Shown piece by piece: positions 17,138 through 55,747 of a stretch of DNA of 64,000 bases. Position 1 is the stretch's first letter, and each line of letters begins with the position of its first letter. A program made the translations under genes and the position numbers. Origin of the DNA: Cliona cf. orientalis (Eukaryota; Porifera; Demospongiae; Clionaida; Clionaidae); NCBI GenBank assembly GCA_963930775.1, contig OZ005690.1:11620411-11684410 (forward strand). The letters are read 5' to 3'. The notes under the pieces were generated by a model. The model saw only the letters and a program-made list of their open reading frames with translations, did not search any database and had not been told where the DNA came from.

Positions 17138-19288
17138 TTAGTTGCCTGAAATATTCTCTCGCCGAAAGTGACCGTAAGCCACATTCTGTTCTAACTCAAC
17201 ATCTCGCTCATCAGAGTCCATATGCATGGCCAACTGCCTATCACTATAGGCAGGGGTTGTTTGGTTACCGCTTTTAGCCAATTTCTTGTAGAGGTAGTGA
17301 TGACACACACATCCCATGATGAAGAGGAGAACATTGGATATGAGTAATACTCCCACCAATATTCCAAGTGTCACTGTTACTGCATTGATATCTGACTCAC
17401 TGCCTGACTCATGCAAAATCCCTGGAAAGTTGGATGATGCATAGACTCAATAATGTTGCATAATTATGCACTGACCTGATGAGTATGTATACAGAAACCT
17501 GTTTTATAATATGAGTTACCATGCCAAATTTATTACCTGTTGTACACGTCACAACACTGGGATCTGGTTTCCATTCCTCATTCCCAGTACAGGTTGTTGA
17601 ATTTTCTCCAATGAGTGACAGGTCGGGAGGACAAACGAAGGTGACAGTTGTTCCCACGTTTGCTGGTACACCATTGTCACCGTAACCTACAACCGCTACT
17701 GGACTGTTGATCATTGGATATCCACATTTGGCTAAAATTTATATTATTATGAAATCCATCATGTACACTAGCATGTGTATGCATACATATAGACTAACCT
17801 GCAACACAATTGACATTCTGTGGATTTGGTTCCCATACTCCATTTCTAGTACAGGTTGTTGTATGGTTTCCATTCAGTATCATTCCAGGGGGACAAGAGA
17901 GGTTTACCATGGACCCTTCTATTGGTAGACCACTGTGCATCAGACTTGGTGTGCTAATGTTGTCAGCAGCTGACAGGGATAACAATCCACAGTTAGCTGT
18001 ACATGTGTACATAATAAGAACAATATTATTCTTATTAAGAAGACATACTTATCATAGTGTACTCTATAGCCTGGCTACTTATCGAGTGACTTACCATAAA
18101 ATAATGTAATATTGCTAGATCCTATACTTTGACAGACAGTAGACGCCTCCAAGCTCACACTGTACTCAGTGTTGTATGATGCTATCAACTGAACACTTGT
18201 GCTTCCAGTGTGTATCATAGGTACCATAGGAATGATGGTGATATTGTATGATGCATCTTCCCACTGAGTCCATTCGATTATGACTGCAATGCTATCAGCT
18301 CTGTATTCTTCAGAAGTCCTGATCATTATTGGATCCAATGGAGCTATATAAAAGGAATAGAAACCTTGAATCACCAAGAAAGTTGATAAGGATAAAATAA
18401 GACTATAGTGATGATTTAATTTCATACGTAATAGCAGAGTGGGGCTATGGGTTTCCTTTTGACCACTTTCCCCAGGTACTCGAATGCTCATCATGTCAGC
18501 TTGTCGAAATTAATAATATACTGATAGAACTTAAGAACTAATAATGTGCAAGAAACGTTCAATCAATTTAGAGATCTACATTTTCCTCAAATCCCTCTAG
18601 CGCATGCATGCTAAGTGTGTATGATGCAAACACCATGTCCATATTATTGGCCATGAACATTTAATGCAGGTCACAGGTAGTAGCTAATAGTGATTATACG
18701 TACTATCATCCATATAGTGGATAGTGGTTGTAGCTGTCGTTGAAGTCACAATATCTGTACAACTCACTACCGTTCCATTCAAACCCCTGCTTACTGAGCT
18801 CGAGTTGACCACCAGTGTGGAAACCAATGGTGAGCTATATCGAGCAGAACTCCTCCTAAAAGTGAATGTTAAGGAGTTCACTCTTACGTCTTTTACTTGC
18901 TGAGATTCATCTTCAGCAGTGACAAAGGTTGGTCCATACTCCATAAATCTACCCAGTGAATTCCTTGCTGTGATACTCCATCTCATAAAGGTTCCATTGA
19001 CGGTGCAGGTCAGTTCAAGTGGATCTCCAGCTTGACAAACTTGGGCCACTGATTCAGGCAACAAGGTGACTGTTGTACCTACACATGTGTTACAAATAAT
19101 ATTAGTCAGGCAAATTCATAGCTACTGAATATGTTGTGATAGCTATCACTGAAGGTATTTTTCGTGCGGAAGAGCCTAGCTGGCACGAGGCTACAATATT
19201 GTAGTAATACGTACGTACCTTCTATATGGATAAAGAAGCCAAAGATTAGAAATAAGTTCAGACTCTTAAGCACGAAATATTCTTCCAT
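17138..19288 (-). CDS. Gene C: Ig-FN3-sushi-sushi-TM receptor with ENVAY-type tail
   Basis: Exons (5' to 3' on minus): 19288-19219 signal peptide (MEEYFVLKSLNLFLIFGFFI); 19078-18704 Ig-like; 18343-18095 FN3-like; 17996-17799 and 17731-17537 sushi; 17421-17138 TM and tail. The joined frame gives 456 residues and all junctions are phase 1. The Ig exon has LELTC, FMRW and LNGTVVSC. The FN3 exon has VIIEW and the family strand YNTEYSVSLEA. Each sushi has four Cys with F-x-C-P-P and NG/NEEW-x-P-N/D-P. The TM is VTLGILVGVLLISNVLLFIM. The tail has PAYSD and ends VELEQNVAYGHF, giving an N-x-x-Y motif but no hydrophobic V/L/I at Y+3. Probably a surface recognition receptor. The sequence ggtaatgttcgtt (19317-19329) lies 29 bases upstream of the ATG. 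Confidence 0.85.
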
Positions 19289-19316
19289 AGCTAATTAAAA
19301 TGCGCAGTCCCAAACA

Positions 19317-19329
19317 GGTAATGTTCGTT
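19317..19329 (+). promoter_or_regulatory. Candidate promoter motif upstream of gene C
   Basis: ggtaatgttcgtt lies 29 bases before the gene C ATG, on the opposite strand. It is one mismatch from the GGTAATGGTC(G/A) form found at similar distances before genes E and F. A functional role is inference. Confidence 0.35.
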
Positions 19330-19515
19330 GAACTCGAGCACTGGTCATGCACATGATTGTCATGCCAAATATTATATTGATAAACAAAAAATTTTGGTAA
19401 CAATACTGATCAGTTGTCGATCCAGCCACTAGATTATATTATAGTACAAGGACTGTAGTGAGCGGCAAAAATGAAAGTATAAGACTTTGGGTTGAGATGG
19501 AAAATTAAAATTGCA

Positions 19516-19655
19516 GTGGCTTCCTCAGTGACTGTGTTTACTGTGGCGTCAATTCTCCATACTATGATACTGTGCACGTGGTGCTGCAGCCACATGAACC
19601 TGACTTGGAACTGAAAGAAAGTGTAGCTTATGACCCATTAAGTTTACTCAGATAA
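19516..19655 (+). pseudogene. Orphan TM/tail exon relic with an intact tyrosine motif
   Basis: After an acceptor-like ttgcag the frame starts like a family TM exon (SVTVFTVASIL). A deletion removes most of the TM. The end is then in a shifted frame: HEPDLELKESVAYDPL, with a TAA at 19653-19655. LELKESVAY is the diagnostic tail motif (N replaced by S). No matching upstream exons exist on this strand. It is related to the relic at 24461-24633, which begins SVTAFAVASIL. Confidence 0.7.
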
Positions 19656-20009: not shown

Positions 20010-21401
20010 ATGGCGGCAGTGTTCGTCTACATGTACACTATGATGAATGCTATTCTTCTGTTGTACACTTGCTGTGACCATACTGGTATGAAAGGTATTC
20101 TTGTAAGCATAATAATTATCTACTCTTGTTATTATCAATGTCACTATGTGAAGTGTTCTGTACTGTGTATAATACATGTACAGTGGAAGGCAGGGTGACA
20201 ACAACTCTACCTGAGGTAGCAACAGTGTGCAATGGAAGTCAACTTGAACTGAACTGTACTATAACTGGAAGAGTACTAGTATGGAAAATTATTCCAGAAC
20301 AAAACCATTCACAGTTGAGCGCTTTGATGCACTCTCCAATAAGAAATGAATCATTTCCATATGGAGATTCTACGATAACATTCACAATAATATCTCATTC
20401 CATGGAACCGACATCATATATAGTGATCAGTCCCATAATCAATAGTCTCAATGGAACAGAAGTGATGTGTATTGATTTAGAGGATCAAGAATCATCATCT
20501 ACTGTTATCAATGTTGTGAATGAGCAAGGTAACGTAATTTAATAGGTTCAAAGCACTTCTGTCATGGTTGATAATTGCCATGGCAATAATTTGGCAGATT
20601 TTGATTCCATCATGATTAGAGCCATCTCAGAACACTTTAATAGAGATGATGTTGAAGTAACCCTGGAGTGGATCCCAGACAATTCACTTCACACCTATCA
20701 TGTGATTATCACCGCTCAACCAGTCTTCAGTATGAAACTGAAGAGGAATTCAGTTCGTCTGAAGGTTGAGTACAACAGATTGTACAATTTGAGCATCGTG
20801 GAAGTGTCTCCTTGTGGACAGACAGTCACTACCAATGAGATATTATACTATGGTGAGCGCTATTATATTATCACATCACATTATTTAAACAATGCACATT
20901 GCTACAATGCAATGCTATAGAATCAGTGTTTGTTCCTTTTTTTATAATTCCTGAAATGAGGTACTTACTAATCTTCACAGGTGGTGTCATCACAAATTTA
21001 CCTGGTACAGATGTTGTCCCTTCAACAAATTTTGAATTAGACAGTAAGATAACTATTAATATTTACTCCGAAATTATAATAATATTTACAGCATAAATTT
21101 TGTTTTTGAATTAGATAGTGAGGGTGGTGATCTGTTAACTGTGGTGGTGGCATCTTTGTCAACCGTGCTTCTTGTGTTTTCTGTGATCACCTTCATCGTG
21201 GGATTCTTATGTGGTCAATGGTTCGGAAGAAAATTTAAGGGACCCCTTAATCAAGCATCCAGTGCACACCCTCAAGCTCCAATAACTCCCCCAGTTCCCA
21301 TCTATGAGTCTATGCTTCCAGATATCACACATGAGGAACAGGCTATTGAACTGGAAGAAAATGTGGCTTATGGTCCCTCGACGTTAATGAATATTTCATG
21401 A
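20010..21401 (+). CDS. Gene D: Ig-FN3-TM receptor without sushi domains
   Basis: Exons: 20010-20085 signal peptide (MAAVFVYMYTMMNAILLLYT); 20184-20528 Ig-like; 20598-20852 FN3-like; 20981-21043 short linker; 21115-21401 TM and tail. The joined frame is open for 341 residues, all junctions phase 1. The Ig exon has LELNC, VLVW and SLNGTEVMC. The FN3 has VTLEW and YNRLYNLSIVEVSPCGQ. Where relatives carry sushi exons, D has a 21-residue linker (GVITNLPGTDVVPSTNFELD). The TM exon reads VVASLSTVLLVFSVITFIVG then FLCGQWFGRK. The tail has both tyrosine elements: VPIYESML and AIELEENVAYGPS. It lies between two minus-strand relatives (C and E). The linker exon is the least certain. Confidence 0.83.
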
Positions 21402-21870: not shown

Positions 21871-24087
21871 TTATGAATGGGTCACATGCTTTGTTGTTCC
21901 ATATGCCACATTCTCTGTCAACTCCAGCCCTTGTTCCAGGTGGTGTTCCGCAGCACTAGGTAGTGCTTCATGATGCAGAGGGTCTATAGGCTTTGTTGTT
22001 TCATATGCCACATTTTCTTTTAACTCCAGCCCTTGTTCCTGGTGTTCTACAGCACTAGGCTGGGGTAGTGCATTCAAGATCACATCCTCATACAGAGGCT
22101 CCATAGGCTGACTTGATGAAGGTGACTGTTTGCGTCTTCGTCTCCGCATAAAGTAGTAACCACAAGCTACTCCAGTAGCTGAAGTCAAAATCACAAGAAA
22201 TGCCACTATTGAGGATGATACTGCTGCTATTAGTAGTGCACGTGAAGATCTTGATTCTTGTGTCTTATTAAGATCCAAGCCTACAAAAATTAATGACAAC
22301 ATGATAAAATTAATGTATATACCATAATTATCCATATGATGAGATGTGATGCATATGCTTGTCGAAATGCATGACATTGTATATAAAGAGTGGAGCTGAT
22401 AATTACAACTATAATGCAGCACAGAATGATACCTTTGCATTCTACATCCCTTGGATCTGGTTCCCATTCTCCATTTCCCATACATGTTGTGGTATTAGGT
22501 CCAAAAAGGACATATTGAGGAGAGCAATCAAAGGATAGAACAGCTCCCTCAAATGATGGATCCATATAACTCTCGATTATCACAGAGTCATTGTCATCAT
22601 CTTGGAATGGGTGGCCACAAGTCACTATAAGATAAGGAGAGAAAAGATTGATATCATAATAATATTATTGTACATTATATCGGGTTATGGATAAAATAAT
22701 AATAATATTATTATACAGGCACACTCATACGTAGTCAGATTAGTTCTTTCTTACTAGAGGTCTCTGTACCTTCAGAGCAGTTTACTTCACTCAGAACTGG
22801 TTCCCACTGACCAGTGTGTGTACACATCACTGACTCTGGTCCATTGAGCATCATTCCAGGAGGACAAGAGAACGTCACCACTGTTCCAGTCACTGCCAGG
22901 TTAATGTGACCCATAGCTATCACAGAATCATCAGAGATCAACAGCAGTGGATCCTCACATCGACCTGCAGTACACATAATATAGAAATAAATACCCAGGC
23001 CCCGCAGTATTTGTCAAGACGTATACCATAGGTCAGTTGAATCTGTGTAATGGCAGTTTCACCATTGTGTCCACAAGAGGTAGCAGTGATGGTCACATTA
23101 GTGGGGATGTTATAGGGTACCATCAGGGCTACAGCGCTAGCTGTCCTCTGGGTGTATCTCAAGTCCACCACTTGATCAAAAGAAACACTGTAAGAAACTC
23201 CTTCCTCTGGTATCCACTCTAAGGTCACTGAGACACTGCCCATTTCAAACATAGCCCTAGTGTCCACTTTCAGGGGACGAGGACTGCCTGCAACAGCATG
23301 ATTTTTGTAATATTTACATATAATATTATAATAATATTATTAAATTTTTTCTGGTCCTTGCATCCTAATCATAATACCTGTGTGGGTTTCTCCAATGACA
23401 AGGATAGTGGTTATGGCCACCATAGCAAGTTGATTATTGATAATATTTGTGCAGCTAACGTTTTTCATATTCAGTGCACTACTGCTGTTGAAAATAGTCA
23501 TTGTAGACACCAATGGAGAGCTACTTCTCTCCGAGGTCCTCAAAATGGTAAAATTAGTAGAATTCACTGTTAAATGTTGTGGCTGCTGACTGAGATCTGT
23601 GGACGATATAAACCAATCCTGTGGTATGGAAACTCCCTGGTTGTTGATTAAAGGGGGTACGCCGAAGTTCCAAACCAGTGCCGTTTCATTTGTTGTACAT
23701 GTTATTTCAAGTTGCTCTCCCACACACACTTGAGCATGAGCCGGATTTAGTCTCACATAACCTAGCGATTTACAAGAAAGTTGGGTCAGCATCAATATAG
23801 AGTCTGCCTGCTATGTATAATTCTGAGATGAAGAAACTTTTTGATAATCATCATAATAATTATTATTATTACATTTCAGGCTCTTAATTCCCTGGCCGCT
23901 ACAATTCTGTACAGGTATGTACAGTGTTCTTATTGGCATTCTTTTTAATTGTGAATCGCAGCATGCATGTCTCAACAATAATATTCACGTGCTTACCTCG
24001 TGAACTATCTGTGGAGAAACCTAAGAAGATAATGAAACAAAGCGATACTCTATGCTGGTCCCTCGCACTGAACCAACTGGTCTTCAT
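21871..24087 (-). CDS. Gene E: Ig-FN3-sushi-sushi-TM receptor with a duplicated ENVAY tail
   Basis: Exons: 24087-23997 signal peptide (hydrophobic core VSLCFIIFLGFST); 23761-23378 Ig-like; 23287-23027 FN3-like; 22964-22770 and 22624-22433 sushi; 22280-21871 TM and tail. The joined frame is 510 residues with all phase-1 junctions. The Ig has LEITC and ALVW. The FN3 has VTLEWIPEEG and a CGHNGET loop. The second sushi carries the family string CMGNGEWEPDPRDVEC. The TM is followed by a basic stop-transfer MRRRRRKQ. The tail has PLYEDVIL and then two copies of a unit of about 30 residues: ALPQPSAVEHQEQGLELKEN-VAYE and ALPSAAEHHLEQGLELTEN-VAYG. It is the only gene here with the distal tyrosine motif duplicated. 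ggtaatggtcatc lies at 24130-24142, 43 bases upstream of the ATG. Confidence 0.86.
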
Positions 24088-24460: not shown

Positions 24461-24633
24461 CTCAGTGACTGCGTTTGCTGTGGCATCAATTCTATTCTTC
24501 ATTCATTGCTGGTTTTCTGTGTGGACACTTTTGTCAAAAGAAGAGGAAATCAAGTAAATTATCACTGCAGACAGATGATGTGGTGCTTCAACAGTACAAC
24601 TTATCCGCTATAGATCCACATTTACTGGACTGA
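24461..24633 (+). pseudogene. Frameshifted TM/tail exon relic
   Basis: After ctttag the frame reads SVTAFAVASILFF. A one-base shift is needed to continue into AGFLCGHFCQKKRKSSKLSL, the TM end and basic stop-transfer seen in genes D and H (GFLCGQWFGRK, GFLCGRHFSKK). The shifted frame then runs through DDVVLQQYNLSAI to a TGA at 24631-24633. The ENVAY motif is missing. There are no companion exons on this strand. Confidence 0.68.
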
Positions 24634-25353: not shown

Positions 25354-27680
25354 TTAGTTGCCTTGACTGGATTGAAAGTGACCATAAGCCACATTACTTT
25401 CTAACTCAAATTCTTGCTCATCAACTCCTGTGCTTGGTAGCTCCAGATCCTCATGTACAATGTCATGTAAAGTGGCAGGTTGGGTGTCCATCTTCTTACA
25501 TCTTAGACCACAAATATAACCAGTAATGAAGAGAAAAGCATTAGATATGAGCAATATTGCCACTAAGGTTGCCAGTATCACTGTTATTGCATTGATATCA
25601 CTGCTTGATTTAGTAGTATTGTAATCTGTAAATTGAAAATGCTGATCCTTAACTCCTGATCATGGAATACAACTTTAATACACAAGTGTTATCATAATAA
25701 CAATGAATTATTGATTACTTTGACGTGAGCAGAAGTCTTCCAAATTTGGTTCCCAATGTCCATCCAATAGACAAACAGCTGTGTGCAATATTACATTTTG
25801 TGCAGCCTCCATCTCATCTGGGCAAAAGCATGTGGTTCTATTGGTGCATGAAAAGTAGATAGCCAGCCCTTCTGCTGTGTGATTGTATGAGTCGATGTAG
25901 CCATTGGGGGGAAGAGAAGGAGCATCACAGTTGAAAATTTCTGAAAATGTTATAATAATTATGTGAAATTTTAAATGTTCTAGCAGACAGTGGTCACAGA
26001 ATGACATGTATCCAATGGATATATATAGTCAGCTAATAACTAATGACATTCAATGTATAATAATGATATACAATAGCAGATACGAACTTATGCACTCCAA
26101 CTCCTGGGGATCTGGCTCCCATTCTCCATTCCCCATACACGTTGCTGTATTGCTCCCACTAAGCGCTAGACCAGTGCGGCAGGTGAAGTTGACAGTGGCC
26201 CCTTGTATCGGTAGACCATTGTATGTCACATTCGGCTTGGATTCATTATCAGCTGATAGCAGTGGATATCCACAATTAGCTGTAATAGTGACAGCTAGTT
26301 TATGACACGTATGTACATAAGCCATTGAACTTACCATAGAACAACAGTACATGGCTTTGTGCTTGATGTTGACAAGGCAGAGCAGATTTCACACTCAAAT
26401 TATAGTTAGTATTGTATGGCAGAATCAGCTGAATGCTTGAGTCTAGATCTCCAGTAGATATTATGGGTATTTGAGGAACGATGATAAGCTGGTATGTTGC
26501 ACCTTCTTCTTGAGTCCACTCCACAGTTACCGTAACATTGTCAGCTCCAAATTCCTCTTCTGAAGTAACCAATATTGGACCAAATTCAGAAGGACCTAGA
26601 AAGTATAAACAGCTACGACTAGCTATAGGAGTTACATAATAATTGGCTATTATTGCCACATGTAATAGTTATTACCCAAGAAATGGTGCAACATGGGTTA
26701 TGTTGCTCAAGAGCTAGATGTTGTCACGAGGGCGTACTAGCCCGAGTGAAACATCAGCCCGAGGACAACTATAACCCATGTTGCACCATTTCTTGGGTAA
26801 TAACCGACTTGTTGTATTACCCTTCTGGCAAAAATATGAGGGCATTTCAACCTTATTTCTATAGGAGTGACTGCATTTTACCCTTGGGCAAAATATGTTG
26901 CATATGCAACATTACTTCCTGTGCAACATCAGTTACGTTGTTATTGCAGAGTCTATGGGAATGAGTCTTAAGTATACAACAAGGTATTCATGCTTCACTA
27001 GTTGTAGAAGCAATTATTTTCTTGTTTGTAGTACCAAGTATAATTTGCAAGGCTGGACCCCAAAAGCTCAATATATGTGATGTAGTTGAACAATGGTCTG
27101 TTACAATACACCATAAACGTACTCATATCAAAAAGATGGATTGTAGTTGAAGTGTTGGTTGATGTAGCCAGATCTAAGCAATATACTTCTGTTCCATTCA
27201 AATATCTGTTCACTGAGTCAATTACTAATGTAGAAATCAAGGGTACCATTCTCTGATCAGAAGTCCTCATGTAGGTGAAAGTTGTTGAATTCAGTTCTAT
27301 TGTTGACATTTGCTGAGAGCCATCTTGGGAGTTGACACTCCGTCCGTACTCCTGTGGAATACCCTGTTCGTTACTCACAATGAAAACCCACCTTAAGAAG
27401 CTCCCACTAGAAATGCATGTCAGTTCAAGTGGATCTCCTACTCTGCAAACTGGAGCCACAGATGTAGGAGACAATGTGACCATACCTACAATCATATATA
27501 GTGATGATATGGAGGTAGTCTGGCGGGCCAGCCCCTTCGCGGGCTGGCCCGCCAGACTAGATATGGAGGCTAGTCATCACCTCTAGATTAAGCAATAGAA
27601 ATACCTGTTGTACTGATATCACAATCACCTGTAATCAAGATTAAAGACAACAAATATTTAAGTAAATAAGATTTCTCCAT
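25354..27680 (-). CDS. Gene F: Ig-FN3-sushi-(divergent sushi)-TM receptor
   Basis: Exons: 27680-27605 signal peptide (MEKSYLLKYLLSLILIT; an alternative donor at 27629 is also in phase); 27485-27123 Ig-like; 26595-26335 FN3-like; 26279-26088 sushi; 25940-25719 divergent sushi; 25625-25354 TM and tail. The joined frame is 461 residues. The Ig has LELTC, FLRW and YLNGTEVYC. The FN3 has VTVEWTQEEG and YNTNYNLSV. The first sushi ends MGNGEWEPDPQELEC. The second is unusual, with extra cysteines (CTNRTTCFCPDEM) and a GHWEPN ending. The TM is VILATLVAILLISNAFLFIT. The tail ends EFELESNVAYGHF; the proximal P-x-Y motif is absent. Gene C is the closest relative by tail and TM. ggtaatggtcgcc at 27709-27721 lies 29 bases upstream of the ATG. 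Confidence 0.84.
26668..26804. mobile_element. MITE in intron 2 of gene F
   Basis: Exact inverted arms of 34 bases: 26668-26701 (starting gttattacccaagaaatgg) and 26771-26804. They flank about 69 bases of unique sequence, in the intron between the Ig and FN3 exons. Confidence 0.8.
27516..27559. mobile_element. 44-bp foldback element in intron 1 of gene F, 10-bp target duplication
   Basis: tagtctggcgggccagcccc and its complement form a hairpin with a tiny loop. Direct repeats gatatggagg flank it (27506-27515 and 27560-27569). It is nearly identical to the element at 32910-32955, so both are recent copies of one family. Confidence 0.87.
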
Positions 27681-27721: not shown

Positions 27722-28557
27722 ATCTGGAAATGTGATTCCAATGGCTGTAATCGCTGCCTCATTGTTATCTACCCAGTAGCAATTTACTTTTCTGTGGTTA
27801 TGAGGTAATTATAGTGTAATTATGATGAAACCTATAGTGTAATCTATGAGGTAATTATGAGAAAATTCAGGGCCTCGCTGGAGCCTTTCTGAGACTTGAA
27901 AATCAGTAAATATGTAGAGTATCTTACGCGTGTATCCAGCGAATAGATTACAAGCTGAGCGCTACTTTCTCTGAGAAGTACTGTTGGTTGAACTTCACGT
28001 GTTTTCTTGGCTTACGTAATGCCATGGATAAATATAGCTATCCTTGCGCTATATATAGCACGCATCACTGCCACAAGGGGCTGGCCCGCGCGCGACTGCA
28101 GCAGCGTGACCAACCTGAACTTCGGAAGGAATACTGTGTTGTCGAGTTCGTCTCTGTGATTGAAGCATCGAAACTTGTCACTATCAAGGTTGAGAGTCGA
28201 TCTTAGACGCCATCTCCATGATTTCTGGGGCCAGCATCGATCGATGTGTACGCATTCTATTGACGACCTTTTACCACATGCACCATTACACTATCCAGCT
28301 ACTGGGGAGATGGTCAAGGGTTCATAATTAAAATTAATCATAACTTCGTTGTTTATTTACAGCTGCTTTCGTGGAACTGTGGCCATGGGTATAACTGAGG
28401 ATAGCCATACTGCGTTTGCATAAACAATTTTACTGTTACAGCTGTGTGCTTCTTGGATGATAGCTGGAATATTGGATGAGTTTTGTTCAATATTATGATA
28501 AATCTAAGCAAAAAATATCATCCCCACTTGTATCATTAGCTTTGGATATAACTATAT

Positions 28558-28613
28558 CTGTGGAGTAACCTAAGAAGATAATGAAACAAAGCGATACTCT
28601 ATGCTGGTCCCTA
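28558..28613 (-). pseudogene. Relic copy of the gene E signal-peptide exon
   Basis: The minus strand encodes SRDQHRVSLCFIIFLGYSTD, which differs from the gene E leader (ARDQHRVSLCFIIFLGFSTD) at only a few positions. The original start region is lost. The flanking upstream DNA (28620-28690) also matches the region upstream of gene E (24126-24210). No downstream Ig exon follows, so this is an orphaned duplicate. Confidence 0.75.
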
Positions 28614-31964: not shown

Positions 31965-32016
31965 TCAACCATCTATCAGTGATCTGCAGAACTTACTATA
32001 TTATAGCGACTAATTA

Positions 32017-33595: not shown

Positions 33596-35885
<2,290 letters not shown>

Positions 35886-39144: not shown

Positions 39145-39430
39145 ATGGAGCTACGTTGGTTGCTGGTTGTTTCACTACTTTGAATTGGTGTTCTGGACAA
39201 ATAATTAAAGGTTTGTTATTAATGAGCAACTATAACAATTATTATGACATGCATCGAATAAAATTAACTATTCAATGACAGTAGCTAGTCTATTTACTCT
39301 CTCAGCTACACCAATCACAACTCCATCAAAAACCGCACCAGTTTGTATTAGAGATCAGCTGGCAATAACATGTAATGTAACAGGAAATTTTCTAAAATGG
39401 AACATCAATCTATCTGGTGATGAGTCATAA
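39145..39430 (+). pseudogene. L': relic of the 5' end of a gene L-type receptor
   Basis: The leader starts MELRWLLVVSLL exactly as in gene L (MELRLLLVVSLL), but a 5-base insertion then brings a TGA in frame. The Ig exon starts after ctctcag (39306) with ITPSKTAPVC, keeps the first cysteine (AITCNVTGNFLKWNINLSG) and stops at DES-TAA. Nothing of the rest follows. It sits between J and K just as L sits after K, so it marks the junction of a tandem duplication. Confidence 0.78.
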
Positions 39431-42950: not shown

Positions 42951-44811
42951 TTATTATGCATCCTACGTAGCTATACATTAATTTTATGATTATTCAATGA
43001 TAGTAGCTAGTCTCTTAACTCTCTCAGCTACATCAGTCATAACTCCATCAGAAACTGCACCAGTTTGTATTGGAGATCAGCTGGCAATAACATAATAATG
43101 TAACAGGAAATTTTCTGAAATGGAATATCAATCTGTCTGGTGATGAATCGTATTCACGGATTCTCTCACCTTTCAGTGAAACCACATACTTACGTTTAAA
43201 CAATACTCAGTTCACGTTTTCAAGAGTTTCTCCTCAGAGCAATTTACCACTTGAATCTGTCATGCTAATTAGCCCTGCTACCAATTATCTTAATGGAACT
43301 GTTGTGAATTGTACGGACACAGACACTGGTAAATCATCATCAACTGTCATTAAGATCATTGCCAATAACATGGGTAAGTAATAATAATAATCAAAGAAGA
43401 GAAATTCAATGATGAAAATTCAATGATTATGTTATCATAATTGTGCTACATCATGCCTTCATTTCTAACTAGCAAAAACTGTCTTGCCTTTTTCATTCGT
43501 GATAAATGTGCTTACAGTGTAGGCATCATTATTTTTTCCCCTCTTTAAGTCGGACTACCATCCATGAATAGCTGCGACCATAATTTTACATGTAACCTAA
43601 TTTGATCATACAGCATGATCAGCACAATTAGTTGTGTCAGTTTAGAGAAATTCCTTATCATCATGATGTATAATAATTATTATACTATCCGGAATAACAA
43701 TCAGTATATAACATAATACGTGATAGGATTCTTATATGAACAGACATTTTGATAAATTTTGAAAATTATCTTAGACTTTTGGATAGCTTGATACGTGACC
43801 TAATATCATACTGTAATACTGTGCATGTATTATAAACATGCTCAATAGCACCACACGTAAACAAGCAATTATTAAGTTGTAAATATTATAATATATCCAT
43901 GTCTGCTTGTTTCTTAGAACTTTTTATATTCTTATCAAAAAGGTTCCTCTCCCAAATCTTGTCACTATGCACTATTTAAATTTATCAGTGGCTGATCTAT
44001 AATTATTCAATAATACACACTGAGCCAGTGCACGGGAAATACTCATAAATTTAATCTTGAACCACTACATCAGATTCTATAGATGCTGGAATCAATATTA
44101 CCTTGCTGCCAGAGCAGTTTGAGAGCGATGGTGTTGTAATTACTCTGGAATGGACTCGGGATCGATTCTTATTATTTATACAACGTCAGCATTGTTCCTG
44201 GTCCTGTACCACTGCTTGAGACTACAGACTATGGTAGCATTACGAGATTTATTTTCAATGTGTCCTACAACACCCACTACAGTGTAAATGTTACTGCATC
44301 ACACCTTTGTGGATCAAAATCAATATCAAACACAACAATTATGCTTTATTATGGTAAGCAAATATTATTATAGCTATATATTATTCATTATTAATATTTT
44401 TATTATTGCTTATTAGTCAGTTGTGCTGATCCTTCCAACTTGACTAAAAACTCCAGCAAAATCAGCGTAGCATACCACGTGCACATAACTCCTCCTGTGA
44501 AAGGTACGCAGATTTACTTTAGCTGTCCTCCTGGACTACTACTAAATGGATCTAATTCGTCAATATGTATGGAGAATGGGGAATGGGAACCAAATCCACG
44601 AGAGGTGGAGTGTGAAGGTACCAGTGATAACATAATTATTATTATGCACACACTGATACATTAAGAGATCCAGAAATAATTTATATACCGTTAATGTTGC
44701 ATGGTAAAATTGTTAATGGTATGCATGTAGTATTGTAATAAATATATTTGAGTGCAGAACCCTCACCGCTATACATGCGTGTATGACTCAAGCGCATGAT
44801 TGTATAGCATG

Positions 44812-45010
44812 GCTCACTGTGTACATGTATGCTTGTTCAATATCAGGAATATTGAACTACATACCCTGCACCTGAACATGGTTATGGCACTGTTCAAGTC
44901 TCTTCAGAGTCAGTGCATCATCTAGGACCGGAGTAGGGGAAAGGTACCTGGTTATGTCACTATACAAACTGAAAGCTACCTAAACTGAGGTGTATGAGAG
45001 CCATGTAAAC
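44812..45010. repeat. Intron block shared with gene H (30240-30440)
   Basis: The segment from gcatggctcactgtgtacat through agtcagtgcat to aaactgaaagc matches the reverse complement of 30240-30440. Genes L (+) and H (-) are on opposite strands, so the block has the same orientation relative to both genes. Confidence 0.6.
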
Positions 45011-45510
45011 ACAGACTGGCAACAGCTGCACACTACTACTCCACTGGGCAGGACTCAACGTGACCACTCTTCCTTTATGTCTGGTATACCTAGAATGCGT
45101 ACTTTCCGAGTCTCGGACGACCCTTACCATTTAGCACAGGAGTGACGGACAAAAATTGCCAAACGATTGCAGTAACCCCTCTGCCTACTCTTTGCGGCGA
45201 GGGTTAATAATAAGTTAATTAATTTTTGTTCCATGCAGCAATGGAGATGGAAAAGGAGATGAAAGAGGGGCAAGGCTCAGGGTCTCTCATGATCAGTCCA
45301 TCTGCACAGATAATCATCATTTCAGCAGCCGTGTGTATTGTCAGCTCCAGTTTGTTCTTTGCTGTTGGATTGCTGTGTCATCGCTACTGTCCTAAACAAA
45401 AGCACCTTCACAACTCAGAGAGTACGCAGCATCAAGAAGCCAAGTGTGTTGAAATTGAACTAACTGAGAATGTGGCTTATAGTCAAGTTCAACTACGTAG
45501 TCTGCCTTGA

Positions 45511-46729: not shown

Positions 46730-47626
46730 ATGAAGATCTTTAACACTGTTGCTATATTATTCTTCATTTATGAATTCGCTTGTGCTATGTCAGGTACGTG
46801 AGAATGTTAACCATTGTGGCTATAATATTGTTTTGTCTATATAACATGTATATAATATTATTATAGAGGTACGTGTGACATTGACTCACAACCTCGGCAG
46901 TGGTGCAATTGCATATCATGGCCAAACAATGATATTTACCTGTACGGTACGAGATATTGTTGTTGGTCATCCCATAGTCATCTCTCTGAGAAGTGATGAC
47001 TATATTGGAACTGGAGGTGATGTCCTCCAAGTGCGTTCTAATGCTCCTCTGGGTACTACTCACAGGAAAATGACCACTGTGACAACTCTTACCAATCGAC
47101 GTATTCGAAATAATAGAGTCACAGTCGAAATACAAATGCAAATAACAGCCTCAGAGGTATACCCCACCTCTAGTGTCAGCTGCAGACCCAACGGTGTACG
47201 ACCTCGTATGGTCACTTTCAACACCGTACCAGGTAATGCACATTAATCATTTAATTTCTGTATTATTATGATCATATCTTGATGATTTATGGTACGAATA
47301 ACCATTAGCTACAACTACAATGATGGAATCACACAATAGTGATACAACTATTGAAAGTACTGCTGAGCCCACGTCCACTGACAATTCGATTTCATTGACA
47401 AGTGAGATTAGCATTTTTGTTGATGATGGCTAATTTTATATCATTCTCCAGTTATGTGCACATGTAAGATGACATAATATTATTATACTTTCTTCTTAGG
47501 TTCAACTCCTATTCTGATTGGTGTTAATGTTGGAGCAACAATAATTACTGCTATGATTCTTTGATTGTAGCTATTTTGATTGTTACAATCTTTATTAAAT
47601 TTTATAAATTAAAAAATAAACAATGA
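46730..47626 (+). CDS. Gene O: short V-type Ig protein, TM exon interrupted by a stop
   Basis: Exons: 46730-46793 signal peptide (MKIFNTVAILFFIYEFACA); 46867-47232 V-type Ig (MIFTC, SDDYIGTGGDVLQV, SSVSC); 47309-47401 Ser/Thr-rich stalk; 47500-47564 start of a TM segment (ILIGVNVGATIITAMIL) then TGA. The joined frame is 195 residues. One base further on, a second frame gives LLIVAILIVTIFIKFYKLKNK and a TGA at 47624-47626, exactly what would complete a TM plus stop-transfer. So either one T is missing at about 47559-47562, or the product ends in a short hydrophobic C-terminus. The latter could suit a GPI signal, but that is speculation. The core of the Ig signature is altered: the usual LEW before SxEYIG is absent (VVGHPIVISLRSDDYIG). 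Confidence 0.65.
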
Positions 47627-48983: not shown

Positions 48984-50881
48984 TCATGTAATACTGTAAG
49001 CCACATTTTCTTCTAATTCAATGTCAGTGTTTTGGGATGTGTGGCTTTCGTTGATCTTTTTCTTGCATTTATGACCCAAACAATAGCCAAATGTGCACCC
49101 AGTGATGAAGACAGTAATTGATGTTAGCAGAAATGTTGATACTGTTGACAAAATTATCAATTTCTTTACATCATATGCATAAGGTTGATTCTCTTGGAAA
49201 ATTTGTTCTACATAGCAATAAAATTTTAATATCGATTCACTATTGTATACCCTTCGACTACCATGGAGTATAATAATCATATTAATATTAATTTTTGTCT
49301 TACCTATGCATTCCACATTGCTTGGATTTGGTTCCCATTCTCCATTCCCTGCGCACGTGGACGTATTATTTCCTGTTAGTAGATAATTTAAGGGGCACAG
49401 GAATGTATAATATTCACTCCCTCAAGTGCAGGCTCACTATATCCCATCACTTGTACTAAATTTCTAACTTGAGCTAATGGATCCTGACACTTAACTGTAT
49501 AGGAAAAAGAATGATGTATAATCACAGTCCTGAGGCAGTAAGTAATGTTACTCACTGTAAATTAGCTCAGTGGAAGTGGTCACATAGTTCTGTCCACAAA
49601 GGGGTACAGCGATAATAGTCACGTTGTACAGAATGTTATAAGATAGTTTCAGTTGAAACCTTGTTCTTTCCAGAGTGGAGTTCATTACAGATGGTTGCGG
49701 TTCACCATGAATAATAATGAGATAATGAGACAGATAAAGGGGGCTATATTCCATCCACCATAAAGTGATAATGACACCGTTTCTCTCTGGCATTACCGTA
49801 GTACTTACGTTTATTTCTTGGGGGCTTGATTCTTTGTTAGGTAAAGAATTCAACTTTAAATTTAAAGTATAATTGGTATATTATAGATATTATTACCAAT
49901 TATAACATTTATCATAGTCGATGCTGTATCCGATGTTGTTGCATCTGTACAGTTCACCACAGTCCATGGCCATTTAGATCTTCACTCACAGGACTGATTG
50001 TTAATGTGGACGTAAGTGGCAAAACATTTTCAGCAGAGCTCCTTGAGTACAAGAATGTTGTGGAGCCAATTCTTTGTTCAGATACCTGAAGATGGTTTGG
50101 ACCAGAGTCTTGGAGAACATGCGTATACTTCATGGGAACTGTTTCATTTTCAGGGATCAGGGAGAAACTTACCGTATAGCGGGAAATTTTCGTTGGTGCT
50201 AATTTTCGTATGATTGACCAAAGCGCCCTTAGAATAAATTTTTGTATTTTTTAATTTCGTATGCTTGCAGTGTAAGATTGCGCGCATGCGCAGCTCGCAA
50301 TGCTAACTAGGCCACGCCCGATTGCTTGACAATGACATCTTGTCGATTGAAGCGATGGTGAGAGGCTACCATGAGTCTACAAGAGTATTTGGACTGCTGC
50401 CGTTGGCGAAGAATTCGAAGCCTTGGCAAAGAACCGATACCGAGACATCGTTAGCACCTGCAGCTGCGCTAGTGACTGCGTGTGGTGTAGGTTAAAGCTC
50501 ACACTCGCTAGAAAAAATTTCGTAGGTTTAAATTTTCGTAGTTTTTATTTTCGTATAAGGGATGGAGCATACGAAATATACGAAAATTAGCACCATACGA
50601 AAATTTCCCGCTATACGGTAATTCTAAAAACCTCCCAGTGGTGTTACACTGGATTGAGAGTATCTCCACTGCACACCGATGCTATACCAGGAGGAGAAAT
50701 CGTGACTGCACCACCTGCATACTCAGTAACAGAACACTGTCATGGATGCATACAATTGATTAATTATTATAAACTGTAACAATATTATTATAATTATTAG
50801 CAAACTGCTATAATATGTACCTTCACAGTATATAAGAAAGGAAGTAAGAATCAGCAAGAATAATATTATAAGATATTTCAT
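48984..50881 (-). pseudogene. Gene M: Ig-FN3-sushi-TM receptor disrupted by a MITE and frameshifts
   Basis: Exons: 50881-50821 signal peptide (MKYLIILFLLILTSFLIYC); 50714-49897 Ig exon with a 447-bp MITE inside; 49831-49556 FN3 (intact; ITLWWMEYSP, YNILYNVTIIAVPLCGQ); 49494-49304 sushi, 191 nt, one base short near 49406-49412; 49207-48984 TM and tail (intact; ends DIELEENVAYSIT). Besides the MITE, the Ig exon has a shift before the first cysteine (about 50641-50655) and a net 5-base gain (ccatgg where gene N has a) near 49965. The Ig exon is otherwise very close to that of gene N (IPENET, SSAENVLPLTS, SEDLNG), which lies head to head with it. Clearly a pseudogene. Confidence 0.87.
50172..50618. 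mobile_element. MITE inserted in the Ig exon of gene M (TA target duplication)
   Basis: Termini ccgtatagcgggaaattttc and its complement, flanked by TA on both sides (50170-50171 and 50619-50620). The homologous exon in gene N is uninterrupted at this position. The TA target suggests a Tc1/mariner-like non-autonomous element. A related element with gggaaattttcg ends lies at about 10308-10520 in gene B. Confidence 0.85.
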
Positions 50882-51136: not shown

Positions 51137-54100
51137 ATGAGACCGCCTTATTTACAGTGTGAGAAAGTGTCAATAACATTAATCTTAGACTTAGTGTTGT
51201 TTTATTTCAGGCCTGTACGAGGTAAGAAATTATTTCGAGCCTTGAATTGCGTGCGCGTGCGCCCGAGAAGAACGAAATCAAATAATTTTGTTCCTCACCG
51301 TACAGGTGGAGCAGTTATTTCTCCTCCTGGGATAGTGTCAGTGTGCGTTGGAGATGATGTCACCCTAATGTGCAATACAACCGGGAGGTTTCTTGAATGG
51401 AGTTTCTCCCTGATTCCTGAAAATGAAACAGTTTCTATGAGGTACTCACGTGCTCTTCAACCCTCTGGTCTAAACCATCTTCAGGTATCTGAACAAAGAA
51501 TTGGCTCCACAATATTCCTCTACTCAAGGAGCTCTGCTGAAAACGTTTTACCACTTACGTCTGCATTATCAATCGGTCCTGTGAGTGAAGATCTAAATGG
51601 AACTGTGGTGAACTGTACAGATGCAACAACATCAGATACAGCATCAACATTGATTAATATCATTAATGAAGAGCTCATCATCCCCCAAGGTATAAGCATA
51701 TTATACCAGGTCCTAATATTATTCTCAACCACCATTATAGTATGACATTGTGGTTAGTTTACGTCATATGCATATGATAGTATTATGCTGGTGTGTACCA
51801 TAATTATTAAATAAATAATAATAGAACATCATAAGCACTTCCTGCCATGATATAATACTTCACAATTTTGATAATGTGTCCCTAACCAGGTAGCTATGCA
51901 TTTGTGATTTAGTAAATCTAACTGCTTCTATAGGTTTTTGGAAAGTGAATGTTTCGGCCCAGTTTGAGAGCAATGGTGTGGTAGTTATTCTACACTGGTG
52001 GTGGTCAACTGTTGAAGATTACAATCTTCAATCTCATAATTTCCATGGTATTATTATCAGTGTTGTTCCACAACTACCTGAAAGTGTACGGACAATTGAA
52101 AGCATAAACACCAGTATCAAATTCAATGTACACTATGATACCTCATACAATGTTACTATAGTCGCTGAATCACTCTGTGGGCAAAACAACGTGATTTCTT
52201 TTATGGAGTTATATTTCAATCAGAGTAAGTACACATGTACAATGGCTATATTATTATTTACATAAGAGTGTATTAATGCCTGATCAAGGCACTTTAAGTA
52301 ATCACTAATATTATTATTGCTTGGTATATAACTCTCTTACGATTATATTGTTGATTTAGCTCTCTGCCAGAATTCTCAACGCCATTACCATGATTCCATC
52401 ACAGTTATGGGTTATCAGATAGATTCAGTGGCTACTAATTTTGGCTGTCAACTAGACATAATAAATATGTCAAAATGTACTGATAGTCTGCCACGGTCTA
52501 ACGGATCAGATGAAAACTGTACATCAGGTAATTAAATAGGCCATACAAAAGCCTCTAATAGTACTTAATTTCTTATTGTAATAGAGGTTATGATACCGAT
52601 CAGCTCGAAAGCTGGAAGTATTAGTGCGATAATAGGAGGTGTGCTTGCAATTGCTGTCTTATTATCACTAGGATCTATCACATGTGCAGCAATATTGAAG
52701 TTTATAACCAAAAAAGGTAATTATTGTAATTATTAATTAATTTTAGTAGCTACTAAATATTAATTATATCTACAGATTCAACTAAACCTGGCAGCACAGG
52801 AAAAATTTTCAGTTCACAACCATTGCAATATCATCCAAATTTGATGTAAATTGACCAAAAATACAATACTTCTACAATGCTAAATTTTAACAAAATTGTA
52901 CCAATACGATGGTTGTATTTTAGCACAAGAGCTCTGAACATTGTAAATTTTAAACGCATGGATTGTAGAGTCAATGTACAATCATTGTAAAATATGTGCA
53001 AATCAGGATGTAATCAGTGCTAATTGCCTACAGATTTCCCCTACTTCGTATTTTTATTGTATTTCAGAAATACACAGGTTGCAAAAAATTTCAAGGATAG
53101 CAAATTGGCTGTAAATTTCTACATTACAATGGTTGTAAACACACTTTTTTTCCTGTGCAGCCAGAGAGCACACTTAAGGTATAATAACAATCAAGAGTAT
53201 TATATTATTATGTAATATTCACAGTATAGTAGTGCGTGAATTAACTTGGTGTTTTTCTGAATCAGTGTATGACATCACAGCCGATTGCAAATAATTAAAC
53301 TTCACATTCATGATTGTGGTGCTGTTATGGTGCCATAATGGTCCTGGTTCTACACAGCTGCAGCTTATTATCAGCACTTGCAATTTACACTAAAACAGGT
53401 TGTTGACACCACTATGACACCACAAAGCAATCAACTATGTAACCATAATAATATCGTCACTCATCGAAAACACCATGTATACGTATGGAGGTTATGTTAT
53501 AGTTAGACTATAGCCTTGAGTGGTTTATTTGAATTGTACGCGAGCCGAGAGGCGGGCATTTAAACCACGAGGCGAAGCTGAGTGGTTTAAATGCATGCCT
53601 CAAAGCGTACAATTCAAATAAATCACGATAAGGCTATAGTCTAAGTGGCTTGCACTATGACCGCCAACCGTGGTATATGCCGGGAAGTTATACCACGGCT
53701 CTATGCCCATAGTAAATACACGCGTTATCTGCCAGCTGTGGTATATGGAAGTTATACCATGGCTGTGGTTACTCCACAGTTTGCACAGTTGGCAGACAGT
53801 GGTTTACATTGTATATTATACTACAGGCGGTGCCTTTGATCTTTACTCTTAGACTAGTCATAGTACAAATATTATTATACACACTCTTAATGTACTGATA
53901 ATACATAATAATATGGTAATTTATGTAAATCTATAGCTACACTAATCTATTATGCAGCAGTTTTGCTCACGATTATACATATGATAGTGAAATTCAACTC
54001 CATTCCCCTGATGCTATTCCAAAGGTATGGTGTATTAATAGTAATTATATTATTCTTTTAGCTGCTGTGTATTATTCCCATAATAATTTTTGACAGCAGA

Positions 54101-55747
54101 CTGACACAAGAGGCCTGGTGTATGCGGACATCGGTACGTCACTGAATCAACGTTCATATCATCGCTCTCTAGCAAGCATTGATCTAGCAGAAGATAGACC
54201 TGTTGAGTACGCACAGCTTAAATTGCCAATGGTACACAGCAATGTTCTTCAAAACGACCAAGTAGTAGAAGGCTGTAAGCAATTATAATGATGGTGCAGA
54301 TGTCACTATATTACTCCTATTATGATCCATGCACGTTCACTTATCATAATATTATTATAGGTGAAGATTCAATTTACGTTAATCTTGATAATCTACTATT
54401 TCAATTACGTTCACAAATTACATTTAAGTGGTATCAGTTTGGGCTTGCCGTTGGTATAGAAAGTGAGATACTGGATAAATTTGCTGAACACTGTGCTCCT
54501 GAAGATTGCATCATGGAGATGCTCGACCATTGGCTGAGAAAATCCACACATAAACCAACGTGGAATGATGTGGCCAAAGCTCTGAGAGTAGTTGAGCTTC
54601 CACAGCTAGCGCTTGATATTGAAAGTGTGTACACAACTGGTAAGATTTTATATTTGGGAAATATGTACTATATATAAATTATTATACAGAGTAGATTTAT
54701 ATACTATAAATGTATATAATATAATATTATACAGTAACTAGAGCTCTATAGAGCACATACCCCGCGCGCCCTGTAGCCACTCTAGCGTAGTATTGCAATA
54801 CTATGAGGCACACATGTAGCGGTTTCATGACGTGACGACCCTTTACAACACAGTGCTTGAGCATGCGCAGTCGCATCCGCATACTAAAAGAGTGGGTGTG
54901 GTCGATAAACCACAGGCATGCTGAACAGAAAATGCACGATTTGTAGAACTAGTAAGCTTTTTCGAGAAATTCGAAGCGCGTACAAACCATTTTTTCACCG
55001 ATATCTACCGATTGGTTGTGCTTATAGCACGCACAGACGCCTAGAACTCGAGATCTGGCGATTTTCGTGCCGACGACGACAACGACAACAACAACAACAG
55101 ACGATTGCTTTACCCCTAGCGCATGCGCGCGGGGTAACTACCAATATTATGCATGGACTGATATTATGTAAACTATAGCACAATATTGATATCAAATTAC
55201 ATAAATTTTTGAGGCTTTTAGGGCACACAAGTGCCCGGCAAAATGTTATAGAATAATGGCATGGGTGTAGACACAATAAAATATTGTAGCGGGGGGGGGG
55301 GGGGGGGGGGGGGGGGGGAGGCTTGATGACCATTGCATTACACTTTTAGACTAGTAAAACTAACATTAATTTTGATACAAGTGAACAGCTGTTCCCAATA
55401 AGTTTGCAGCTGAGATCTCTATAGTCTAAGAGTCACTCGCTCGACAATATTTAATAATGCAAGGAGCCTGCTCCAAATTTTGTAATAATATTATTAGTAT
55501 GCTATTTTTAATAGGCAAACATCCAGTAGAAATCGACAACGATTCAGCACCACAACGGCCAAATAATAAGATTATGGTATCAGTGGCTACTGAAGAGCTA
55601 CCTCCACCTATACCACCAAAGACTATTGAGATTGGTACGCCATTAACACGACCAGATGATGATGATGATGGTTGTGAGAAGCAAAAGCAATTTCATATTA
55701 TGCAGGAACCTACTGCACCTGCGTTACCACCTAAACCTAAGAAATAA
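51137..55747 (+). CDS. Gene N: Ig-FN3-sushi-like-TM receptor spliced to ITIM-like motifs, Death domain and proline-rich tail
   Basis: Exons: 51137-51221 leader (MRPPYLQCEKVSITLILDLV); 51306-51689 Ig; 51934-52224 FN3; 52360-52527 degenerate sushi; 52585-52716 TM; 52776-52845; 53958-54024; 54100-54274; 54361-54639 Death domain; 55515-55747 proline-rich end. This joined frame is open for 627 residues. The Ig has VTLMC, FLEW and DLNGTVVNC. The TM is GSISAIIGGVLAIAVLLSLG. The tail has LVYADI, VEYAQL and SIYVNL (each [LVS]-x-Y-x-x-[ILV]). A Death-domain-like region follows: FKWYQFGLAVGIESEILDKF, MLDHWLRKS, PTWNDVAKAL. The end is PPPIPPK and PALPPKPKK. The join at 52845|53958 (gtaaat donor) is the weak point: if unused, the protein stops at 52849 after 377 residues, and the Death-domain exons belong to another transcript. 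There is no ENVAY motif. AATAAA is at 55861. Probably an inhibitory or death-adaptor-coupled receptor; this is inference. Confidence 0.7.
53503..53644. mobile_element. Foldback element in an intron of gene N
   Basis: Inverted arms of about 39 bases: ttagactatagccttgag...tgaattgtacgc, and the complement ending in aaggctatagtctaa with a few mismatches. It lies in the 1.1-kb intron between the juxtamembrane exon and the tyrosine-motif exons. Confidence 0.7.
54733..55145. repeat. Dispersed repeat, copy in the last intron of gene N
   Basis: Same module order as 1083-1495: gagctctatagagcacatac, gtagccact(c/a)tagcgtag, tgacgaccctt, gagcatgcgcag, and a terminal gcgcatgcgcgcggggtaa. Both copies lie beside a PALPPKPKK exon, but here it is before the exon and at the window start after it. 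Confidence 0.65.
55291..55318. repeat. poly(G) tract in the last intron of gene N
   Basis: Run of 28 G. Minus-strand open frames through it encode polyproline and are rejected. Confidence 0.95.

Follow-up and report, generated by a model that had tools for sequence, protein, structure and literature searches.

Receptor genes in the window and the cluster around them

The DNA analysed here, a 64-kb window of chromosome 2 (C2) of the sponge Cliona cf. orientalis (bases 11,620,411-11,684,410), holds ten loci of a family of immunoglobulin (Ig)-type transmembrane (TM) receptors (Table 1). An initial annotation had described nine of them (C, D, E, F, H, J, K, L and M) as sharing one build, consisting of a signal peptide, an Ig domain, a fibronectin type III (FN3)-like domain, zero to two sushi domains, a TM segment and a tail with a kept tyrosine motif, and had taken the tenth, N, for an ectodomain only. 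We found all ten where they had been placed, on both strands, and in the nine loci each domain does occupy its own exon-like open reading frame (ORF), most with phase-1 splice-site candidates; a good candidate was not found for a few exons, such as the acceptor of the D Ig exon and the donor of the E Ig exon. There are two sushi exons in C, E, F, H and K, one in J, L and M, and none in D, and identity to the first sequence in the window alignment ranges over 26-41% among the Ig exons. The proposed signal peptide is borne out in part, since a loose heuristic gave a signal-peptide-like first exon for seven of the nine loci scanned (M was left out), but none for H and none close by L. The estimate that about a third of the genes are broken agrees with the frame breaks in J, L and M (three of ten) and with three further fragments, and the kept motif, N-[VI]-[AS]-Y, is present in all nine tails of what we call class A. 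Locus N, on the other hand, has the exon layout of a complete receptor of a second class, B, with a TM exon, two tandem motifs of the immunoreceptor tyrosine-based inhibition motif (ITIM) type, a Death domain and a proline-rich end. The initial annotation had missed this class, as well as the head-to-head gene pairs (twins) that join one member of each class.

The window is only a small part of a receptor cluster of about 3 Mb (chromosome 2, 10.99-14.02 Mb), and the cluster of some 38 kb originally described, while present, is correspondingly a fragment of it. The genome searched comprised 216.8 Mb in 149 contigs, one primary haplotype of one individual. With a single Ig exon as query (best 150 of 283 candidates), 143 of the 147 Ig matches tabulated on chromosome 2 fell within 10.98-13.9 Mb, and matches to the FN3-like and tail exons lay mainly in the same region, with others on chromosomes 10-14, 16 and 18. 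Once the Ig and FN matches listed were merged, 221 ectodomain loci (124 plus, 97 minus) could be counted from 10.99 to 14.02 Mb, a rough figure (about 200) that rests on the best-scored candidates and counts twice any gene whose exons lie more than 900 bp apart. Profiles trained on the window exons matched the Ig and FN exons at E values of 1e-32 to 1e-54, which are inflated because those exons were part of the profile; the FN exon of locus J, which was outside it, matched at 1.9e-15. None of the best 150 canonical Ig_3 exons (of 1,805 candidates genome-wide) falls within 10.99-14.02 Mb, so the Ig domain of the cluster is far from the Ig of Pfam.

Only the sushi exon passes a Pfam cut-off (4e-5); the Ig and FN3-like exons gave no match above one. 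Naming the latter two by Pfam and PDB sequence searches was dropped, the PDB matches being weak, in favour of structure prediction for the Ig exon, and of hhalign together with a relative on chromosome 13 for the FN3-like exon. A model of the F copy of the Ig exon, built from a 49-copy alignment, had a predicted local distance difference test score (pLDDT) of 92.5 and a predicted template modelling score (pTM) of 0.86, and its top Foldseek matches in the PDB were antibody and T-cell receptor (TCR) V domains at probability 1.00 (TM-score by query length 0.43-0.58 among the PDB matches listed). Because the model is confident and matches antibody and TCR V domains, we regard the predicted fold as settling the Ig exon as a V-set domain. 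Across the 49 sequences C23 is present in at least 90%, and W32 and C102 are invariant. The name of the FN3-like exon stands on weaker grounds. The lone PDB profile matches were weak, to fibronectin (E 0.7) and to 1wj3 of KIAA1496 (E 0.59), which we take to be an fn3 domain, and one of 51 members matched Pfam fn3 (E 0.017). Aligned by hhalign to fn3 exons of the same genome, the exon gave E 0.013, against 0.2 and 0.36 for sushi and Ig controls, and the chromosome 13 relative matched Pfam fn3 at 0.0038, below the cut-off.

A second family of Ig exons, IgB (motif, for example, ILEWRSAEYIG), is interleaved with the main one and aligns with it at an hhalign E value of 2.9e-4. By our reading, the cluster region of chromosome 2 holds 92 of the 102 IgB matches in the genome. 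Two matches to the main Ig exon, at 11.845 and 11.854 Mb and thus 9 kb apart, have equal scores; they may stem from a recent duplication or from a haplotype that was not purged.

Two kinds of cytoplasmic tail

Class A tails are short and carry two tyrosine motifs. We collected 55 distinct tails from 46 profile matches (window and fetched loci) and 20 fetched stretches, requiring a TM segment with 25-160 residues after it. NxxY was present in 51 of the 55 (mean of shuffled tails, 7.8), N[VI][AS]Y in 46 (0.1), the proximal motif Y[DEN]x[ILVM] in 41 (5.0), NxxY together with the proximal motif in 39 (0.9) and a strict ITIM in 24 (7.9), counts that are partly by construction because the tails were gathered by similarity. 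The two tyrosines are 19-29 residues apart in 37 of the 39 tails with both. Tails with divergent TM segments on chromosomes 11 and 14 retain VVYEE(V/I) ... IELEENVAY(G/E)HI.

The consensus of an ITIM is [ILVST]xYxx[ILV] in a cytoplasmic tail, and that of the activating counterpart (ITAM) sets its tyrosines 6-12 residues apart. At the level of the motif, putative ITIMs are found in both classes, in 24 of the 55 class A tails and as tandem pairs in class B. Of 51 class A tails, 25 have I, V or L at +3 from the distal tyrosine, and among the window loci the strict ITIM fits H, J, K and L but not C, D, E, F and M. We rejected a canonical ITAM for class A because the tyrosine spacing is too long. 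A purely endocytic YxxPhi signal was likewise set aside, as 20 of the 51 tails have a distal +3 residue other than I, V, L or F (31 have one of these), which leaves NxxY as the more constant part. The proximal motif may still be read as an endocytic YxxPhi.

Two further observations concern these tails. The cassette ELxENVAYG, or a near variant (IEDNEAYG in L088), follows TM segments on chromosomes 11, 12, 13 and 14 (L082-L088), and a third tail type, SVTY(K/R)K ... YD(E/V/I)(I/V) ... NEAYYSTV or NESYHSR, is joined to the same ectodomains in four loci at 11.04-11.34 Mb of chromosome 2 (L020, L018, L036 and L013).

Class B is represented in the window by locus N, whose Ig, FN3-like and TM exons precede a tandem ITIM exon (both motifs strict), then a Death domain exon and a proline-rich one. 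Further examples occur elsewhere in the cluster and outside chromosome 2. With the Death exon of N as query, 46 of the best 150 of 701 candidates lay in the cluster; 36 of these 46 had an Ig or FN exon on the same strand within 6 kb upstream (median 3.0 kb), and only 6 had an ectodomain exon on the opposite strand. The Death domain lies past the hydrophobic TM exon in N (Pfam 8.5e-5) and is matched at 6.8e-7 in L098, a layout read from genomic exons alone. On chromosome 13, a relative runs from Ig through FN3-like, sushi and a hydrophobic segment to tandem ITIM and Death. A single ORF holds both the tyrosine motifs and the Death domain in L071, and likewise in L098. The proline-rich exon of N has no Pfam match; its ELPPPIPPK recurs in L070.

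For 20 Death exons, spread over six chromosomes, we scanned about 0.65-1.0 kb upstream; 19 of them came from the Death list, and L106 was chosen because its motif exon had matched. Two [ILV]xYxx[ILV] motifs 18-35 residues apart in one ORF occurred in 11 of the 20 sense stretches against 1 of the 20 antisense (P = 0.0012), and in 10 against 1 of 19 when L106 was left out (P = 0.003). Outside the cluster, tandem-ITIM or near-ITIM tails with a Death domain were noted in L098, L101, L102 and L106 (chromosomes 3, 10, 13 and 18).

A phmmer search of the PDB with the L071 ITIM-Death ORF returned nothing at E 0.01. Among the open-access papers listed in literature searches, none dealt with this locus, with comparable paired-receptor anatomy in a sponge or with an ITIM-Death receptor in sponges, nor did these listings and the accessible parts of the sources show an ITIM and a Death domain within one receptor.

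Head-to-head twins and a proposed paired-receptor logic

Among 57 Ig sequences, neighbours in divergent orientation were each other's best match in 6 of 12 cases, against 0 of 18 for tandem or convergent neighbours (P = 0.0016). In all six twins the class A gene is on the minus strand and the class B gene on the plus strand, and they make up six of the seven divergent couples that could be classified as A/B with both Ig sequences; for some further divergent couples the class was assigned to one member only. When the gene bodies were compared, similarity began 6-21 nt ahead of the Ig match for five of the couples (in P3 and P4 the class B sequence compared began just 19 and 38 nt before it), and for M/N, of which M is broken, it began inside that match. 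Over the stretches compared, similarity ended inside the ectodomain in all six, and in P1 and P6 the 1.2 and 1.5 kb compared beyond that end gave no match. The similar stretches measure 263-1018 nt, form two blocks in two couples, and are 81.6-97.1% identical in nucleotides. Because the FN3-like exons of M/N (0.37) and P4 (0.27) are not close, it is the Ig exon that appears to be the unit kept alike.

Foldback contigs or unpurged alleles in a very heterozygous genome would also produce neighbouring copies, and, according to the available portion of the assembly report, k-mer completeness of the primary assembly is just 60.5% and 81 haplotypic duplications were removed in curation (PMC12639293). 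Yet the same source gives the primary assembly a consensus quality of 58, and the twin partners carry different tails, share only stretches that stop within the ectodomain, in two blocks in two couples, and differ in nucleotide identity from couple to couple. We therefore consider an assembly or haplotype artefact very improbable.

In an Ig tree of 53 copies, tail class took 14 changes for 15 class B leaves, no fewer than in shuffles (mean 13.3, range 7-15); tail class thus does not track Ig phylogeny in these copies. The Ig of locus K clusters with the class B gene of L070 and that gene's twin. Twins that are alike, with tails and ectodomains reassorted, are the signature of paired receptors, as in SIGLEC11/SIGLEC16, and in sequence terms six linked A/B twins with Ig identities of 0.72-0.97 and different signalling ends conform to it. 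A very large complex of Ig superfamily (IgSF) receptors with paired members exists in a sponge.

These findings support a germline-encoded recognition-receptor complex operating on paired-receptor logic, with a phosphotyrosine arm and an ITIM-Death arm, to which we assign a probability of about 0.7. Each gene would encode a single-pass surface protein whose V-set Ig domain, on a stalk of FN3-like and sushi domains, would bind a ligand. One pool of ectodomains is combined with two main cytoplasmic ends. The class A end is a short tail with P-x-Y-[DE]-x-[IVM] and then N-V-A-Y (NxxY, of the type bound by phosphotyrosine-binding (PTB) domains), which, with I, V or L at +3 in about half of the copies, reads as an ITIM; the class B end consists, by its exon layout, of two strict ITIMs some 22-30 residues apart, followed by a Death domain and putative SH3 ligands. 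Head-to-head twins keep their Ig exons similar to near-identical, most simply via gene conversion, and both arms of a twin would then see the same ligand, their balance setting the outcome. We infer that Src-type kinases phosphorylate the tail tyrosines, that class A recruits SH2 and PTB proteins, and that in class B the two ITIMs draw in SHP-type phosphatases and the Death domain binds Death adaptors. The phosphotyrosine state might then decide whether the Death arm fires. The two arms would presumably have opposite signs, and either could be permissive or destructive; such logic would serve innate immunity or allorecognition equally well.

Several points weigh against this reading. The gene models are exon lists predicted from genomic DNA; three of the ten genes in the window, M of the M/N pair among them, are broken; and the class A tails, as noted, were gathered by similarity. 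The strict tandem ITIM pair was missing from 9 of the 20 Death-upstream stretches, of which L098, L102 and L092 have one YA-type motif (with a near-miss partner, CIYADV in L098 and MIYSEV in L102), and L095, L096, L100, L103, L105 and L108 showed no tandem ITIM exon in the stretch read. To complete three of the twins (P3, P4 and P5), sequence had been fetched specifically from divergent neighbours, and without these twins the mutual best matches fall to 3 of 9 against 0 of 18 (P = 0.029). Ig identity is 0.52 in the seventh A/B couple (11290301/11291181), whose members are not sisters; the class B TM and tail of P1 and P6 lay outside the stretch compared; the Death exon of P5 is 5.6 kb beyond its ITIM exon; and the class A tails of P4 and P6 carry the variant motifs NEAY and NAAY. 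Inverted duplication followed by tail replacement would explain the twins too. Lastly, positive selection is not clearly seen among the paralogues. A parsimony count resembling single-likelihood ancestor counting (SLAC), made on the 10.99-11.37 Mb part, window excluded, gave ratios of nonsynonymous to synonymous rates (omega) of 0.61 for 33 Ig exons, 0.59 for 34 FN exons, 0.57 for 57 sushi exons and 0.62 for 18 TM/tail exons, with no site positive at P < 0.01 and 2 of 119 Ig sites at P < 0.05 uncorrected. These and the following estimates concern paralogues, not alleles.

Pairwise Nei-Gojobori (NG86) medians, window included, were 0.61 for Ig, 0.53 for FN, 0.63 for sushi and 0.40 for TM/tail, with omega above 1 in 1%, 8%, 8% and 5% of pairs. 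The contrast that had been drawn between diverged ectodomains and a kept tail is thus visible in the pairwise values but not in the SLAC-like ones, which are all near 0.6, and nothing is clearly above 1; we regard it as a mild sign that the tails are somewhat more constrained. Neither count gave positive selection clear support, and we did not use it as evidence for allorecognition. An omega near 0.6, with three of ten genes broken, would also fit weak constraint on adhesion or tissue-organisation receptors in a relaxed region undergoing mostly neutral birth and death, with no role in recognition, and the accessible part of a review describes sponge IgSF proteins as mainly adhesive (PMC11999971). 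However, the tail tyrosine motifs are kept while their surroundings diverge, tandem ITIMs before Death domains recur on several chromosomes, and twins keep the identity of their ectodomains and not of their tails. This makes such an account improbable, and the view of the locus as a candidate for recognition, built on clustered, diverged Ig-type TM receptors with conserved tyrosine tails, stands.

To our knowledge the genes for self/non-self recognition in sponges are still unsettled; the grafting behaviour has long been known. One use for a recognition complex of this kind would be histocompatibility, in which highly polymorphic receptors or ligands are matched between neighbours to decide fusion or rejection. 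The anatomy is like that of two known systems, compared by architecture as the papers describe it. As set out in the available text, the fester co-receptor (FcoR) and fester genes at the fuhc locus of Botryllus schlosseri form a type I TM multigene family of tens of loci; the proteins combine a V-type Ig domain and sushi domains with a tail that carries an ITIM, a hemITAM or a core YxxI/L/V motif, and loci of the fester family have little amino-acid homology to one another (PMC12065747). FcoR differs in having two C2 Ig domains, against FN3-like here, and the role in fusion and rejection is known from knock-down of fester, whereas the Cliona cluster is known from genes alone; that text mentions neither a Death domain nor A/B twins with shared ectodomains (PMC12065747). 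The Hydractinia Alr complex, in the sections available, is likewise a cluster of diverged IgSF genes, with at least 41 loci, many of them likely pseudogenes, and reported ITIM/ITAM-type motifs (PMC11067881, PMC12065747). Relative to Alr, Cliona has roughly 200 ectodomain loci, an FN3-like and sushi stalk and a Death-domain class. Sponges do tell self from non-self tissue, but the words 'immunoglobulin' and 'receptor' did not turn up in a term search of the accessible main text on graft transcriptomes of Amphimedon (PMC5450542). With paralogue omega near 0.6 and nothing clearly above 1, we consider histocompatibility, which is compatible with paired-receptor logic and names a use for it, rather unlikely.

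Equally compatible would be innate sensors of microbes or symbionts, an expanded repertoire like those of NLR or SRCR proteins that would read microbial surfaces and in which the Death arm would lead to NF-kB or cell death. Expansion of other receptor families is known in sponges. Death domains, through their adaptors, fit an alarm output. The available portion of one study reports more than 600 SRCR genes in Halichondria, and genes with sushi, Ig or Death domains among those responding to lipopolysaccharide (LPS) (PMC8242945). V-set twins with ITIMs, on the other hand, are as reminiscent of receptors that bind host or self ligands as of receptors for microbes, and we hold this use to be tentative, the odds leaning somewhat against it.

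Among vertebrates, paired receptors such as SIGLEC11/SIGLEC16 are close in kind, being neighbouring genes about 9 kb apart with different signalling ends, whose similar ligand-binding ectodomains are, in the accessible account, maintained by gene conversion under relaxed constraint (PMC5701461). A V-set domain is a further feature in common. We claim no homology with Siglecs. Activating partners among vertebrate paired receptors use a charged TM segment and ITAM adaptors, whereas the second arm in Cliona would be a tandem ITIM with a Death domain. Death receptors (the TNFR superfamily and p75NTR) are single-pass proteins with a cytoplasmic Death domain and cysteine-rich TNFR repeats outside; class B would, on its predicted exon layout, be single-pass with a cytoplasmic Death domain too, and differs in its ectodomain of V-set Ig, FN3-like and sushi domains and in the tandem ITIM ahead of the Death domain. 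The general kind, clustered IgSF recognition receptors with ITIM-type tails, is already known from Botryllus FcoR, Hydractinia Alr and vertebrate paired receptors. What is new, as judged from the gene sequences, is the split of shared V-set ectodomains between a phosphotyrosine tail and a tail of tandem ITIMs and a Death domain. The cluster offers a named place, a gene architecture and a checkable prediction, namely that twinned receptors have an ectodomain in common and differ in their signalling ends. If this is true, paired-receptor logic with ITIM-type tails is present in one early-branching animal lineage. It is possible, though we would not expect it on present grounds, that this is a paired-receptor immune complex on the scale of the vertebrate leukocyte receptor complex, evolved independently in sponges or preserved from the animal base, in which one arm is a new type of V-set receptor, with its own Death domain under the control of tandem ITIMs, such that loss of a self signal kills or alarms the cell directly.

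Features of the window

Table 1. Receptor loci, fragments and IgB exons (positions in the window) and head-to-head twins (positions on chromosome 2)
Feature	Position	Strand	Details
Locus C, class A	17141..19076	-	Ig 18705-19076; FN3-like 18096-18341; sushi 17800-17994, 17538-17729 (Pfam 4e-5); TM/tail 17141-17401 (VELEQNVAYGHF)
Locus D, class A, no sushi	20183..21398	+	Ig 20183-20524; FN3-like 20594-20851; TM/tail 21117-21398 (VPIYESM ... IELEENVAYGPS)
Locus E, class A	21874..23759	-	Ig 23388-23759; FN3-like 23028-23285; sushi 22774-22962, 22434-22622; TM/tail 21874-22278 (NVAY motif twice)
Locus F, class A	25357..27483	-	Ig 27124-27483 (modelled, V-set); FN3-like 26336-26593; sushi 26086-26277, 25726-25932; TM/tail 25357-25614
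Locus H, class A	29480..31780	-	Ig 31433-31780; FN3-like 30935-31180; sushi 30609-30815, 29886-30059; TM/tail 29480-29785 (PVYENI ... NVSYGPL, strict ITIM)
Locus J, class A	37091..38593	+	Ig 37091-37444; FN3-like 37513-37794; sushi 37900-38085; TM/tail pieces 38293-38430, 38396-38593 (frame break in TM exon; PLYDTI ... NVAYSAV, strict ITIM)
Locus K, class A	39813..41799	+	Ig 39813-40181; FN3-like 40253-40510; sushi 40576-40773, 41103-41291; TM/tail 41542-41799 (PLYDTI ... NIAYSAV, strict ITIM)
Locus L, broken	42991..45507	+	frame breaks in Ig 42991-43372 and FN 44067-44352; sushi 44419-44616; TM/tail 45241-45507 (NVAYSQV, strict ITIM)
Locus M, class A half of head-to-head M/N	48987..50739	-	Ig broken, pieces in 49877-50739; FN3-like 49557-49829; sushi pieces 49302-49492; TM/tail 48987-49205 (ELEENVAYSIT)
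Locus N, class B, ectodomain and TM	51308..52733	+	Ig 51308-51673; FN3-like 51936-52217; TM exon 52569-52733
Locus N, candidate signal-peptide exon	from ATG 51137	+	loose heuristic
Locus N, tandem strict ITIM exon	54094..54285	+	LVYADI ... VEYAQL; conserved part 54112-54246
Locus N, Death domain	54360..54662	+	Pfam Death 8.5e-5, over cut-off
Locus N, proline-rich C-terminal exon	55430..55744	+	PPPIPPK, ALPPKPKK; SH3-ligand-like
Tail fragment, remnant	19515..19652	+	DLELKESVAYDPL
TM fragment, remnant	24475..24621	+	
Ig fragment, remnant	39257..39427	+	resembles locus L
IgB Ig exon	7666..8043	+	second interleaved family
IgB exon	33692..34120	+	second interleaved family
IgB exon	46851..47243	+	second interleaved family
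IgB exon	61297..61704	+	second interleaved family
IgB exon	62097..62513	+	second interleaved family
Twin P1	11111175/11113317, chromosome 2	A - / B +	Ig identity 0.91
Twin M/N	window, chromosome 2	A - / B +	Ig identity 0.72
Twin P3	11709402/11711919, chromosome 2	A - / B +	Ig identity 0.78
Twin P4	11825102/11825938, chromosome 2	A - / B +	Ig identity 0.90
Twin P5	12516874/12517654, chromosome 2	A - / B +	Ig identity 0.95
Twin P6	13876046/13878795, chromosome 2	A - / B +	Ig identity 0.97

A search of the whole window against Rfam at gathering thresholds gave no match. The window also contains two tandem copies of 274 nt at 32013-32560 (99% identical) and a 58-nt element at 24006-24063 and 28555-28612 (98% identical), with related short repeats at 24171 and 28785-28946. 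A long (CT)n tract at 34690-34840 lies 3' of the IgB exon at 33692-34120, ahead of a hydrophobic ORF.

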